From the NCBI GenBank assembly GCA_947175465.1, contig CAMWMY010000003.1:1-19539 (forward strand): a stretch of 19,539 nucleotides of DNA. Reading direction: 5' to 3'. Each line of letters opens with the position of its first letter. Position 1 is the first letter of the stretch. The notes under the pieces are model-generated. The model saw nothing but the letters and a program-made list of their open reading frames with translations, was not told the origin of the DNA and searched no databases. Positions 4,919 to 10,430 of this stretch are shown one piece after another. This DNA comes from an uncultured Erysipelotrichaceae bacterium (GTDB taxonomy: Bacteria > Bacillota_I > Bacilli_A > Erysipelotrichales > Erysipelotrichaceae). The position numbers were made by a program, and so were the translations under genes.

Positions 4919-5806
4919 GTGACAATTCGGCATTTAAAAATTTTTGTGACTGTTGTAAAATGTGGAAAAATGAGAGAGGCAGCCAATACTTTATTTTTAT
5001 CACAGCCAACCATTAGTCAGGCAATCCGTGAATTGGAAGCGCATTATGGTGTAAAGTTATTTGAACGTTTATCTCATAAATTATATGTAACACAAGATGG
5101 GGAGCGCTTATTTCAACAGGCCCAACATATTATAGATGCTTTTGAAGGCTTAGATGCTGTGATGAAACAAGCTGCTTCATCTTCGGTATTGCGTATTGGG
5201 GGAAGTGTAACGGTTGGGACATGTTTACTACATACGCTTGTCACACAATTAGAGTCTTCTTTAGAACATATAGAAGCTAAGGTTGTTATTAATAATACTT
5301 CTCATATTGAGGAGCAGATTTTAAATAATACGATTGATATTGGAGTTGTAGAAGGGTTAGTTAAAAATAAAAATTTTATGAATATTCCTATATATGAAGA
5401 TGAGTTAGTCATTGTAGCAGGTAAAGAACATCCTTTTTATCAAGTTAAAGAGTTATCTATCTCACAATTAGAAGGACAAGCCTTTGTATCTCGAGAAGAA
5501 GGAAGTATTGAGCGTAATCAATATGAACAGTATCTTTTAGAAAATGGAATTGAGTTAAAACAGGCATGGAGTTGTACTAACACTGATGCGATTAAAAGAG
5601 CTGTGATGAATGGAAGAGGACTTGCGATATTATCAAAATTGCTAGTTGAAAAAGAAGTAGCAAAAAAAGAGTTATCGATCGTTACGATAAAAGATATAAA
5701 AATGAGCCGAGATATTCAACTCATCTATCATAAAGATAAGTTTCTATCTCAGCCCATGCAAACATTTATTTCAATATGCCAAGCGCTTAGCCTGCCATCC
5801 AAATAA
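4919..5806 (+). CDS. LysR-family transcriptional regulator
   Basis: A 295-residue LysR-type regulator of normal family length. The N-terminal helix-turn-helix is clear (residues 1-60: RHLKIFVTVV, then MREAANTLFLSQPTISQAIRELE), followed by the linker helix and a periplasmic-binding-protein-like effector domain from about residue 88. The start is taken as GTG at 4919, because AAGGGG (4908-4913) lies five bases upstream and because the frame's earlier TTG coincides with the -35 box of the gene's own promoter. The 3' end overlaps the convergent chromate transporter gene by 20 bases. A T-N11-A dyad upstream of the chromate transporter promoter makes that operon its most likely target. The effector is unknown; CysL/CbbR-like regulators are similar by eye, but no closer assignment is possible. 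Confidence 0.88.
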   Translation: MTIRHLKIFVTVVKCGKMREAANTLFLSQPTISQAIRELEAHYGVKLFERLSHKLYVTQDGERLFQQAQHIIDAFEGLDAVMKQAASSSVLRIGGSVTVGTCLLHTLVTQLESSLEHIEAKVVINNTSHIEEQILNNTIDIGVVEGLVKNKNFMNIPIYEDELVIVAGKEHPFYQVKELSISQLEGQAFVSREEGSIERNQYEQYLLENGIELKQAWSCTNTDAIKRAVMNGRGLAILSKLLVEKEVAKKELSIVTIKDIKMSRDIQLIYHKDKFLSQPMQTFISICQALSLPSK

Positions 5807-6359
5807 GCCAATAAAGAAAGGTTCCAATCACACCACTTCCAAAAATAACGGTAATGGCTCCAAGTTTATATTTGCGTAGTAAGTATAAACCACCGACAAA
5901 TAATAAACATTCTACCCAACGGAAATTTGATAAGATGATATGTTCTTTTTCCGCTTGGAAAACTCCTAAAAATAAAATAGATAAACCAGCAGAAGCAATT
6001 AATGCAACAACCGCAGGTCTTAATGCGGATAATACAGTTTGTACTCCTGAAAAGTTACGGTATTTGTAATAGAAGTGTGCTAATAATAAACAAATAATGA
6101 AAGAGGGAATAATAACTCCTAAAGTACATATGATAGCACCAAAAACCCCAGAAAGTCTTGTCCCAACAAAAGTGGCAGAATTAATAGAAATAGGACCAGG
6201 TGTCATTTCAGCAACTGTAATTAAATCACTAAATTCTGCTAATGTCATAAGTTTGTGTAAATCAACAATTTGATGTTGAATAAGAGGAATAGCGGCATAT
6301 CCTCCTCCTACACTAAATAGTCCAATTTGTAAGAAACTTAAAAATAATGTGAGAATCAT
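5787..6359 (-). CDS. Short-chain chromate transporter family protein, second subunit
   Basis: A 190-residue membrane protein with one CHR domain. Seen: the N-terminal helix with FSVGGGYAAIPLI, then a conserved loop with ITVAEMTPGPISINSATFVG, then four or so further hydrophobic helices. In this family, short single-domain proteins work as pairs that replace one two-domain ChrA; the ion carried (chromate, sulfate or another anion) is not established here. The start is the ATG at 6359, which overlaps the upstream gene's TGA (ATGA). GGAG lies nine bases before it. A longer version beginning at 6425 would run 70 bases back into the upstream gene and has no reason to be used. It overlaps the 3' end of lysR by 20 bases with no clear terminator between them. 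Confidence 0.87.
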   Translation of the reverse strand: MILTLFLSFLQIGLFSVGGGYAAIPLIQHQIVDLHKLMTLAEFSDLITVAEMTPGPISINSATFVGTRLSGVFGAIICTLGVIIPSFIICLLLAHFYYKYRNFSGVQTVLSALRPAVVALIASAGLSILFLGVFQAEKEHIILSNFRWVECLLFVGGLYLLRKYKLGAITVIFGSGVIGTFLYWLIWMAG

Positions 6360-6940
6360 GCTTCTGTTCTCCTTTCTTTCCATAGGTTCCATAATAAATC
6401 CGCAATTCCAATTCCTAAGCAGCAAAGAATGACAATCATAGCACTGATATCAAAGAAATATGTGCAAATGAAAGCGACAATCATTAAACCGATATATAAA
6501 GCTTTTTTTGCTTTAAATACATGACTTGCTAAATTAATAACAACATCTAAAATAACTGCTGCAACTCCTGCTCTCATTACTTGTAGAGCAATTGCGATAA
6601 TTGGATTCTCACGAAATTGTGTATAAAATACAGAAATAACAGAGATAATAACCATTGGTGGAATTGCTGTACCTAAAACAGCTACTAATGATCCAATGAT
6701 TCCATACATACGATAACCGATAATAACCGAAGCATTAATAGGAATAGGTCCAGGAGATGATTGTGAAATGGCTGTAATATCTAACATTTCTTCTTCTCCA
6801 AACCAATTTAACTCTTCAACAAATTTTTTCTTCATTAAAGAAACAATAACGAAACCACCACCGAATGTAAAGGCACTCAATAAAAAGGTAGACTTAAATA
6901 ATTGCCAAAGCATTGGACGTGGGTTTTCTACTTTTTGCAT
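6356..6940 (-). CDS. Short-chain chromate transporter family protein, first subunit
   Basis: A 194-residue single-CHR-domain membrane protein, first gene of a two-gene operon. It shows FTFGGGFVIVSLM near residues 24-36, the loop AISQSSPGPIPINASVIIGY (about 58-77) matching the partner's TPGPISIN motif, and about five hydrophobic helices. The paired motifs in inverted-topology halves are what is known of short-chain chromate transporters, which need both subunits. AAGGAGG lies six bases before the ATG, supporting the start. A promoter and a LysR-type dyad precede it. Chromate efflux is the family label, but in gut Firmicutes the natural substrate is uncertain. The next gene overlaps by ATGA, indicating coupled translation and roughly equal amounts of the two halves. 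Confidence 0.87.
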   Translation of the reverse strand: MQKVENPRPMLWQLFKSTFLLSAFTFGGGFVIVSLMKKKFVEELNWFGEEEMLDITAISQSSPGPIPINASVIIGYRMYGIIGSLVAVLGTAIPPMVIISVISVFYTQFRENPIIAIALQVMRAGVAAVILDVVINLASHVFKAKKALYIGLMIVAFICTYFFDISAMIVILCCLGIGIADLLWNLWKERRTEA

Positions 6941-8498: not shown

Positions 8499-8574
8499 TT
8501 ATAAAAATTTCATAGGCGAGTTTCCTTTTTTTCAAAATCTTCGTTATTTTGCCTATTTTGGCTTTTTTTTATGT

Positions 8575-8583
8575 CATAGGATA
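8575..8583 (+). promoter_or_regulatory. Candidate sporulation (SigK/SigE-type) -10 element of the cotJ operon
   Basis: CATAGGATA fits the SigK -10 pattern CATANNNTA and partly fits the SigE -10 CATACAAT. No convincing AC-type SigK -35 is present; TATTTT at 8554-8559 is a weak SigE-like -35. Mother-cell control of cotJ is known in Bacillus (SigE). The next 30 bases hold a small hairpin, TGAGAT/ATCTCA (8587-8592 and 8599-8604), immediately before the ribosome site. Confidence 0.4.
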
Positions 8584-8623
8584 CGTTGAGATGTGAAAAT
8601 CTCAGAAAAGGAGGATTTATTTT

Positions 8624-9193
8624 ATGAATAATCGTAATGGATGTTGTAGTCAACGCCGTAATTCTTGTTCTTGTAGAGGGGAAAGAATTCGCGTAGGAGA
8701 AGGTAGTAATTCTTATCGCAATGAACGTCGTAATCGTTGTTGCGAGAACACATGTCGTCCACGTACATGTGAACAAAAATCATGTGCACGTTTACGTGCG
8801 GAAGAAAGATGCCGCAATAACTTTAACCGTTGCATGAGAAACGCAAGAAATGTAGATAACAATTGTGGATGTGGAAGAGGTTTTAGCCGTTTTGAAGAAG
8901 ATTTCTATACGTTTAGTAATGATGGAAGATGTAACCGTCGTTGTCATTCTTGTGGATGCAATGATTTTTCTACTTTCAATGATTTTGAAAGTTACAATGA
9001 TGAATTTGAATGTTGCGATGATGATTATGATGACTTTGATTCCATCGATCAAGGGTTATACAATGCTTCCTTAAGTATGGCATATGTTCCAAGACAAAGA
9101 TGGAGATGTACATTTAGACGTGAAGAAGGATTTTGTAAAGGTACTATATTTCCTGAGTTATACAAACCATTTTGTTCAAGAGGAGGGAAATAA
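8624..9193 (+). CDS. cotJA: CotJA-like spore coat protein with long Cys/Arg-rich N-terminal extension
   Basis: A 189-residue protein. Its last 45 residues match the CotJA family: SLSMAYVPRQRW (149-160) then KGTIFPELYKPF (172-183). CotJA is a small spore-coat protein (about 80 residues in Bacillus) that acts with CotJB and CotJC, which follow here. What is unusual is the extension of about 140 residues in front. Residues 1-85 are rich in Arg, Asn and Cys, with CC and CxC pairs; residues 88-142 are rich in Phe, Asp and Glu. I count 22 cysteines in all, 19 of them before residue 135. No signal peptide or membrane helix is present, as expected for a mother-cell protein. AAAAGGAGG (8606-8614) lies nine bases before the ATG. 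The extension is probably for disulfide crosslinking or metal binding in the coat (inference). Confidence 0.82.
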   Translation: MNNRNGCCSQRRNSCSCRGERIRVGEGSNSYRNERRNRCCENTCRPRTCEQKSCARLRAEERCRNNFNRCMRNARNVDNNCGCGRGFSRFEEDFYTFSNDGRCNRRCHSCGCNDFSTFNDFESYNDEFECCDDDYDDFDSIDQGLYNASLSMAYVPRQRWRCTFRREEGFCKGTIFPELYKPFCSRGGK

Positions 9194-9194
9194 G

Positions 9195-9446
9195 ATGCGA
9201 AACCGTTGTGAGTTATTAAGAAGAATTCAAACGTATGATTTCAATATGCAAGAAGCTGCTTTATTTTTACACACAAATCCTTGCAACCGCAGAGCAATGG
9301 AATATTATAATTTCTATCGCTGTTTAAGTGAAAGAGCAAAAAGAGAATATGAAAGAAGTTTTGGTCCTTTAACAAATCGCTCTAATAACTATAGCTGTAA
9401 TTGGCAATATATATACGAACCATGGCCATGGGAAAGAGAGGTATAA
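9195..9446 (+). CDS. cotJB: Spore coat protein CotJB
   Basis: An 83-residue protein matching CotJB in length and in order of landmarks: an N-terminal helix with LLRRIQTYDFNMQEAALFLHTNP, a central MEYYNFYRC, the YERSFGPL turn and the C-terminal WPWERE motif. CotJB is a structural partner of CotJA and CotJC in the inner coat; no catalytic role is known. The start is ATG 9195, two bases after the cotJA stop, with AGGAGGG (9181-9187) seven bases upstream inside the end of cotJA. A longer frame opens at 9084 within cotJA but lacks a ribosome site and would overlap the CotJA signature. It has only three cysteines and no Cys-rich extension, unlike both neighbours. It is followed three bases later by cotJC. 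Confidence 0.9.
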   Translation: MRNRCELLRRIQTYDFNMQEAALFLHTNPCNRRAMEYYNFYRCLSERAKREYERSFGPLTNRSNNYSCNWQYIYEPWPWEREV

Positions 9447-9449
9447 TTT

Positions 9450-10346
9450 ATGTGGGTATATGAAAAGAAATTGCAATTTCCAGTAAATATTTCAAGACCA
9501 GATCCTAAATTGGCAAAAGCTATTATTACACAGATTGGTGGACCAGATGGAGAAATGGCTGCCGCAATGCGCTACCTTCATCAAAGATATACAATGCCTC
9601 TTCGTGAAGTAAGAGCTATTCTTACTGACATTGGGACAGAAGAGTTAGCACACTTAGAAATGATTGGAGCTATCGTTTATCAATTAACAAGAAACTTATC
9701 TGTAGAACAAATTCGTGAAGCTGGTTTTGATCAATATTTTGTTGATCACACAACAGGAGTATATCCACAAGGAGCATCAGGAACTGCTTTTAGTGCATCA
9801 GTACTACAATCAAAAGGAGATCCTATTGCTGATTTAATGGAGAACTTAGCAGCTGAACAAAAAGCTAGAGCGACATATGATAATATTCTTCGTCTAACAG
9901 ATGATCCAGAAGTTAGAAAACCTATTGAATTTTTACGTGCACGTGAAATTGTGCATTTCCAACGTTTTGGAGAAGCGCTACGCTTATTGCAACGTCATTT
10001 AAATAGCTGTAATTATTATCAATCCAATGCATCTTTCGATCACGTAAGAGGCATTGAAATTGAAAGAAATACATGCTGTGTAAATGGTAGAAACTGTGAT
10101 CGTGATTGCGCTTGTAGAAGTGGACATGATCGTGAATGTTGTCAAAGAAATAACAATTGCGGTTGTGAATCTAACCATAACTGTTGCCAACAAAACCGTA
10201 GTTGTGGATGTGAATCCAATGATAACTATTATGAAAATGCCAATGAATACGCTAATGAATATACATGCAATCAAGGTTGTTGCGAAAGAAGTCATGACTG
10301 CTGTGAAAGAGATCGTGACTGTGATTGTGAAAATACCATTTTATAA
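9450..10346 (+). CDS. cotJC: CotJC, manganese-catalase-like spore coat protein with Cys-rich C-terminal tail
   Basis: Residues 1-185 form a complete CotJC/manganese-catalase four-helix domain. The dimetal ligands expected for the family are visible as Glu35 (GPDGEM), Glu65 and His68 (GTEELAHLE), Glu136 (NLAAEQKAR) and His169 (REIVHFQRF), so catalase-type chemistry is possible. Bacillus CotJC stops near residue 189; here about 110 further residues follow, of low complexity, with 21 cysteines counted from 187 to 293. Most are CC or CxC pairs, and CGCESN occurs twice (237-242 and 252-257). Asn, Asp, Glu and Arg fill the rest. The start is ATG 9450, with GAGAGG eight bases upstream at the end of cotJB. 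Likely role: coat or exosporium-like scaffold and peroxide defence, with the tail for crosslinking (inference). A 12-bp stem terminator follows. Confidence 0.9.
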   Translation: MWVYEKKLQFPVNISRPDPKLAKAIITQIGGPDGEMAAAMRYLHQRYTMPLREVRAILTDIGTEELAHLEMIGAIVYQLTRNLSVEQIREAGFDQYFVDHTTGVYPQGASGTAFSASVLQSKGDPIADLMENLAAEQKARATYDNILRLTDDPEVRKPIEFLRAREIVHFQRFGEALRLLQRHLNSCNYYQSNASFDHVRGIEIERNTCCVNGRNCDRDCACRSGHDRECCQRNNNCGCESNHNCCQQNRSCGCESNDNYYENANEYANEYTCNQGCCERSHDCCERDRDCDCENTIL

Positions 10347-10391: not shown

Positions 10392-10430
10392 AAAAAGAGA
10401 ATCTTGCTCATGGATTCTCTTTTTGTTTTT
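10392..10430 (+). terminator. Strong intrinsic terminator of the cotJ operon
   Basis: AAAAAGAGAATC (10392-10403) and GATTCTCTTTTT (10413-10424) form a perfect 12-bp stem with a nine-base loop, followed by GTTTTT. It lies 45 bases after the cotJC stop. Confidence 0.9.

Follow-up and report, generated by a model that had tools for sequence, protein, structure and literature searches.

Why should a manganese-catalase-type protein of the spore coat end in a long, cysteine-rich tail? The question is raised by cotJC, the third gene of a cotJ operon in the DNA analyzed here (the window: 19,539 nucleotides on contig C3 of the draft genome G000, which comes from an uncultured Erysipelotrichaceae bacterium and is about 83% complete). 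A first-pass annotation had described this tail and had proposed that the first and last proteins of the operon gained the same kind of module. The features concerned are these:

8548..8592, forward strand: promoter-like block, TTTGCCTATTTTGG ... CATAGGATACGTTGAGAT, upstream of cotJA, with a conserved counterpart at the cotJ operon of G037; putative
8624..9193, forward strand: CotJA, 189 residues with 22 Cys; Pfam CotJA matches residues 150-183 only
8624-9070, forward strand: N-terminal extension of CotJA, 149 residues rich in Cys, Arg, and Asn, preceding the Pfam CotJA part
9195..9446, forward strand: CotJB, 83 residues with 4 Cys, no extension
9450-10346, forward strand: CotJC, whole gene, 298 residues, third in the operon
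9450..10043, forward strand: CotJC residues 1-198, Mn-catalase domain with ligands E35, E65, H68, E136, and H169
10044..10343, forward strand: CotJC residues 199-298, Cys-rich tail with 20 Cys, predicted disordered, kept in one group of relatives
10137..10166, forward strand: first CCx5CxC unit, residues 230-239, inside a 15-residue tandem (230-244/245-259)
10182..10211, forward strand: second CCx5CxC unit, residues 245-254, from motif counts against shuffles
10299..10328, forward strand: third CCx5CxC unit, residues 284-293, from motif counts against shuffles
10392..10424, forward strand: terminator-like hairpin of 13 pairs shortly 3' of the cotJC stop, from a consensus scan

Pfam matches to CotJA and CotJB lie directly upstream of cotJC, which is the operon order expected of CotJC. 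The block upstream of cotJA is shared with G037, a genome of the same family and another genus, and its CATA core resembles the -10 regions of promoters for the mother-cell sigma factors E and K. The terminator consensus scan of the region found four candidates, compared with 1.2 expected, and the hairpin listed above is probably the end of the operon. SpoIVA is encoded in the same genome, which makes a spore-forming host probable. The CotJC domain encoded by another genome of the family (G039) does not differ from the one in Merdibacter massiliensis, a member of the Erysipelotrichaceae according to NCBI. Elsewhere in the window (5787-6940), two adjoining half-size proteins appear similar to a chromate transporter (ChrA) pair and stand beside a LysR-type regulator.

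The catalase part of CotJC was annotated as complete with all five ligands, and this held up. Residues 1-183 match PF05067 with 190.2 bits, against a cut-off of 27. The five ligands align with the Mn ligands of the Mn catalase 1jku, and they are invariant across 61 aligned CotJC rows. An AF2 model built from the same number of rows predicts the Mn-catalase fold and is disordered from residue 199 (an earlier model from 9 rows was poor, with a mean pLDDT of 45). Judged from its sequence, CotJC is a complete Mn-catalase-type domain with an added Cys-rich tail.

The extent of the tail needed correction. A standard CotJC had been said to end near residue 189, but relatives in the family stop at about 198, with NPxFD. 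Therefore, the tail starts at about residue 199 (position 10044), and the added part is real but is about 100 residues long, not 110. The annotated total of 21 Cys between residues 187 and 293 was exact (187, 209, 210, 216, 220, 222, 230, 231, 237, 239, 245, 246, 252, 254, 273, 277, 278, 284, 285, 291, and 293), and Cys187 is also found in untailed relatives such as L005. Cysteine makes up 20 of the 100 tail residues, compared with 86 of the 5,438 residues (1.6% on average) in the 17 other window genes that were counted. The densest 100-residue stretch of any of those genes has at most 5 Cys. The tail is coding sequence. Its 100 codons contain no stop, which happened in 0 of 5,000 base shuffles, and its third-position GC (0.20) is near that of the domain (0.17), compared with 0.33 for all window positions.

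To place the tail among CotJC proteins, we refer to the window's CotJC as P0001 and to its near-copy as P0004. We scored 7,996 CotJC homologues and surveyed the best 120 for tails. Among those 120, eight have at least 8 Cys past residue 185 (P0004 to P0009, P0060, and P0076), and the rest have at most 4. A 51-row tree unites the seven tailed rows in one clade (fork 99/96) and P0060 with P0076 in another (100/98). In a 270-row FastTree, no untailed row falls inside the group that the eight tailed rows make up (local support 91). These eight represent about six lineages (P0001/P0004, P0005, P0006, P0007, P0008, and P0009/G037), and with P0004 left out, members of the clade are 64 to 84% identical to P0001. 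The Cys-rich tail of P0060 and P0076 is a separate one that ends alike in both (CRTNAGEDIPI...CC); past residue 185, the former has 14 Cys and the latter 12. The tree suggests that a Cys-rich tail was fused to CotJC at least twice.

Such tails are uncommon. CotJC matches were found in 36 of 272 genomes of the family: 24 unsplit, 10 in pieces only, and 2 to a distant paralogue only. We inspected all 24 unsplit proteins. That of G000 has 20 Cys past the domain and that of G037 has 10, compared with 0 or 1 in the other 22. A class-wide sample gave matches in 117 of 395 genomes. Of these, 42 were inspected (30 loci and 12 others selected mostly for long frames), and apart from G000 none has more than 1 Cys beyond the domain; the remaining matches were judged by frame length alone. 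Among 80 GTDB loci, we found no CotJC with 5 or more Cys beyond residue 185; in that set, the gene is cut, split, or masked short of its end at no fewer than 11 loci, and the window's own genome is possibly missing. An apparent tail in G157 was rejected, as the match to residues 1-285 crosses three stops and the frames behind cotJC have no Cys-rich tail. The tail is an addition, specific to a lineage, to a coat enzyme that is already known, and it probably relies on a familiar type of chemistry. A literature search, mostly without subscription journals, found no description of such a tail on CotJC in the portions of papers that it covered.

Many relatives have a cotJC gene that is split (L167 in G042, L168 in G024, L169 in G073, and L170 in G561; L069, L073, L077, L082, L091, and L092 among the GTDB loci). 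Judged by match ranges, the split points lie at about residue 65 (the TEELAH ligand motif), at 132-144 (the AAEQKAR ligand motif), and near 30, 50, and 175. Ten of the 34 family genomes with CotJC hold pieces only, some of which may be contig breaks. Each of four intervening elements that we read encodes a large serine recombinase (PF07508), and the interruptions look like skin-type intervening elements. In the text available to it, a literature search found no description of cotJC as an insertion site of this kind. The public contigs of L081, L105, and L112 stop exactly at CotJC residue 174-175, a split point of other loci. An assembly that broke between the excised and the integrated form would have this effect. 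G117 has an intact CotJC (L113, C7:14743-15333), whose C-terminal 41 residues are matched a second time at a distance of about 6 kb (C7:8524-8646).

How well is the tail kept where it occurs? The nearest relatives found retain it, so the refuting test proposed with the annotation, absence from close relatives together with many substitutions or stops, did not refute it. In the domain, P0001 and P0005 are identical at 187 of 198 positions; in the tail, they are identical at 54 of the 90 that align. The P0005 tail is 98 residues long, compared with 100 in P0001, and keeps the C terminus CxCENTIL. Beyond residue 210, the alignment score of this pair was reached by 0 of 500 shuffles. However, their 8 aligned Cys pairs hardly exceed the shuffle mean of 6.7, and 121 of 500 shuffles reached 8. 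Therefore, Cys richness and the tail frame are kept, and single Cys positions are kept much less.

Searches with the tail alone found no Pfam family and no PDB chain at E 10, although both searches are weak for a short, biased sequence. A homology search with the tail region confirmed only the window's own protein, one of six candidates. It missed P0005, so such a search is insensitive for this kind of sequence. No second copy of the tail or of the CotJA extension was found in the window's genome (about 83% complete).

The annotated likeness between CotJA and CotJC is one of composition. The CotJA extension is also Cys-rich, but BLASTP of CotJA against CotJC gave an E value of 0.039, 34 of 500 shuffles reached their local alignment score, and the CCx5CxC unit of the tail (below) is absent from the three CotJA proteins tested. 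These comparisons do not support a single module common to both proteins. The extension has no Pfam match at E 10. A homology search with CotJA gave 3 proteins, and the extension is identical at 120 of 150 positions in P0125 and 111 of 151 in P0126, so that it is better kept than the CotJC tail. CotJB indeed has no extension, but it does have 4 Cys in 83 residues, a number equaled or exceeded at 15 of 151 CotJB loci counted.

Both tailed genomes that could be read have very Cys-rich CotJA proteins, with 22 Cys in the window's and 42 in that of G037. Two genomes are too few to speak of a correlation, and we regard the co-occurrence as a coincidence that merits a test. In genus g35, Cys-rich CotJA extensions stand beside untailed CotJC (about 25 Cys in G109, about 27 in G157, and 11 in G034; that of G135 is partly masked). 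Therefore, the extension and the tail need not be gained together, as had been supposed. The long CotJA frames of L083, L080, and L112 were stop-to-stop artifacts and were left out of the count, and the CotJA of L122 is partly masked. The extension of G037 contains a perfect 30-bp repeat (L004:800-937; 4.6 copies, 100% match) and that of G157 a perfect or near-perfect 102-bp repeat (L120:2805-3212; 4.1 copies), so strain differences in length are likely.

What might the tail do? We lean toward the explanation that it is a Cys-rich module, disordered and quick to evolve yet retained, whose disulfide cross-links anchor CotJC in the spore coat, with other CotJC chains and probably CotJA as partners. 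It would then act much as the unrelated Cys-rich coat proteins CotY, ExsY, CsxA, and CdeC do. The thiols of the tail would form interchain disulfides, Cys-rich CotJA from the same operon would be the probable partner, and the cross-links might toughen the coat or hold CotJC there. A cross-linking module would thus have been fused to the enzyme in the tailed clade. What the analysis shows is that the tail is fused to the domain, that it is coding, that every member of the group found has it, that a four-Cys unit is repeated in it, that it is predicted to be disordered, and that the genome encodes SpoIVA. Against this explanation, single Cys columns are not beyond chance in P0001 and P0005, composition varies, with the four-Cys unit absent from P0006, P0008, and P0009, and the tail has no predicted ordered domain, whereas CotY and CsxA are described as forming ordered lattices. 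Published accounts of location also differ. CotJC homologues are reported as surface-exposed Mn catalases of Clostridioides difficile spores (PMC9542656), but another paper describes CotJC as an inner-coat protein (PMC8745062), which counts against this explanation. CotJC homologues of C. sporogenes are reported to share a single gel band with a protein that has 14 Cys (PMC4942563). Also against the explanation, the window's genome (about 83% complete) gave no CotZ/CotY family member and no further copy of the tail or of the CotJA extension.

The main rival of disulfide cross-linking is metal binding, for which the four-Cys unit and the His-rich tails of G037 and P0009 leave room. The CC and CxC pairs that had been singled out are present (5 and 4), but 319 and 566 of 1,000 shuffles, respectively, reached these numbers, so they are no commoner than 20% Cys gives by chance. 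CGCESN occurs twice, as annotated. The nonrandom feature is CCx5CxC, a pattern that we picked after inspecting the sequence. P0001 has three copies (at 230, 245, and 284), a number reached in 0 of 1,000 shuffles. P0005 has two copies of the relaxed form [CS]Cx5CxC (0 of 1,000 shuffles), with Ser in place of the first Cys, and P0007 has one strict copy (18 of 1,000). It is absent from P0006, P0008, P0009, P0060, P0076, and all three CotJA proteins tested. Cys periodicity was rejected as a tail feature: lags 6, 7, and 15 are weak in P0001 (p 0.035, 0.033, and 0.019, uncorrected for 24 lags), only lag 23 appears in the G037 tail (0.035), and no lag falls under 0.05 in the P0005 tail or two CotJA extensions.

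With four Cys per ten residues in three copies, these units could hold a thiol-ligated metal (Zn, Cu, Cd, or Fe). Next to the Mn catalase, the tail would then buffer or sequester metal in the manner of a metallothionein. The tails of G037 and P0009 fit this, being rich in His, Asp, and Cys (and in Glu) and closer to a metal-binding look, and His/Asp/Cys-rich stretches occur in CotJA of genus g35. However, the unit is not in every tail, its first Cys is replaced in P0005, 8 of the 20 tail Cys of P0001 fall outside the three units, and the searches at E 10, weak as they are for biased sequences, gave no match. We consider metal binding unlikely.

Growth of low-complexity sequence with little function, in which repeats rich in Cys, Asn, Arg, and Glu expand and drift at a free C terminus, seems quite unlikely. 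It would account for the fast divergence of the tail relative to the domain, for the different lengths of the near-identical P0009 (248 residues) and G037 (243 residues) proteins, and for the repeat growth in CotJA of G037 and G157. However, no loss of the tail was seen within the tailed group (among the best 120 of 7,996 homologues), and the stop-free run of 100 codons counts against it. The 15-residue tandem also argues against it, with pS 1.10 and pN 0.14, although it has only 15 codons and the pair was chosen for protein similarity. The tandem is saturated at silent sites and not in protein, and we therefore rejected recent slippage, for which TRF shows one weak 12-bp array only (10231-10261).

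Very unlikely, in our view, is a sacrificial role, in which peroxide would oxidize the tail and so spare the enzyme or the coat, without building cross-links. The fusion to an intact Mn-catalase site favors it, as do reports that loss of CotJC homologues lowers spore catalase activity (PMC9542656 and PMC11222575), but most relatives seen lack such a tail. No result here separates this role from cross-linking. Neutral read-through past the normal stop was rejected as the sole account because a group of relatives keeps the tail.

Returning to disulfide cross-linking, it has a variant that we regard as the least likely idea considered here. Enzyme and cross-link substrate would be joined in one chain, the Mn site would set the local peroxide, and the tail (with CotJA) would supply the thiols to be oxidized. 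Disulfides would then set the coat only at the places occupied by CotJC, and the process would end once the peroxide is gone. If the tail does cross-link, nature has provided a tag for attaching enzymes to spores and, with it, a way to examine the formation of disulfides in the coat.

Known systems offer several comparisons. Metallothioneins resemble the tail in their high Cys content, but the tail has no sequence match to them in Pfam or PDB at E 10, in searches that are weak for short, biased sequences. The window's CotJC is like the rest of its family (PF05067) in operon order, fold, ligands, and CotJA and CotJB neighbors and differs by about 100 extra residues with 20 Cys. CotY, CotZ, and ExsY of Bacillus are likewise Cys-rich, disulfide cross-linked proteins of the coat or exosporium. 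However, the tail is predicted to be disordered, is fused to an enzyme, and, like the CotJA extension, does not match the CotZ/CotY family (PF10612) at E 10. That family has no match in the window's genome (about 83% complete), whereas the B. subtilis control was positive. Cys-rich spore-surface proteins without common ancestry are described as self-assembling and cross-linking (PMC7333573, PMC7677010, and PMC4950064). CsxA and ExsY are reported to assemble into disulfide cross-linked layers (PMC7333573), as is CotY, with 15 Cys in 161 residues (PMC4950064), and disulfides are reported to be at least part of the assembly of CdeC, with 37 Cys (PMC7677010). CsxA of C. sporogenes and CdeC of C. 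difficile, compared here by description only, are like the tail in being unrelated, Cys-rich, and from anaerobic spore formers, and as described they assemble themselves. However, the cited accounts present these Cys-rich coat proteins as separate structural proteins (PMC7333573, PMC7677010, and PMC4950064), whereas here an enzyme of the coat carries the Cys-rich module as a fusion.
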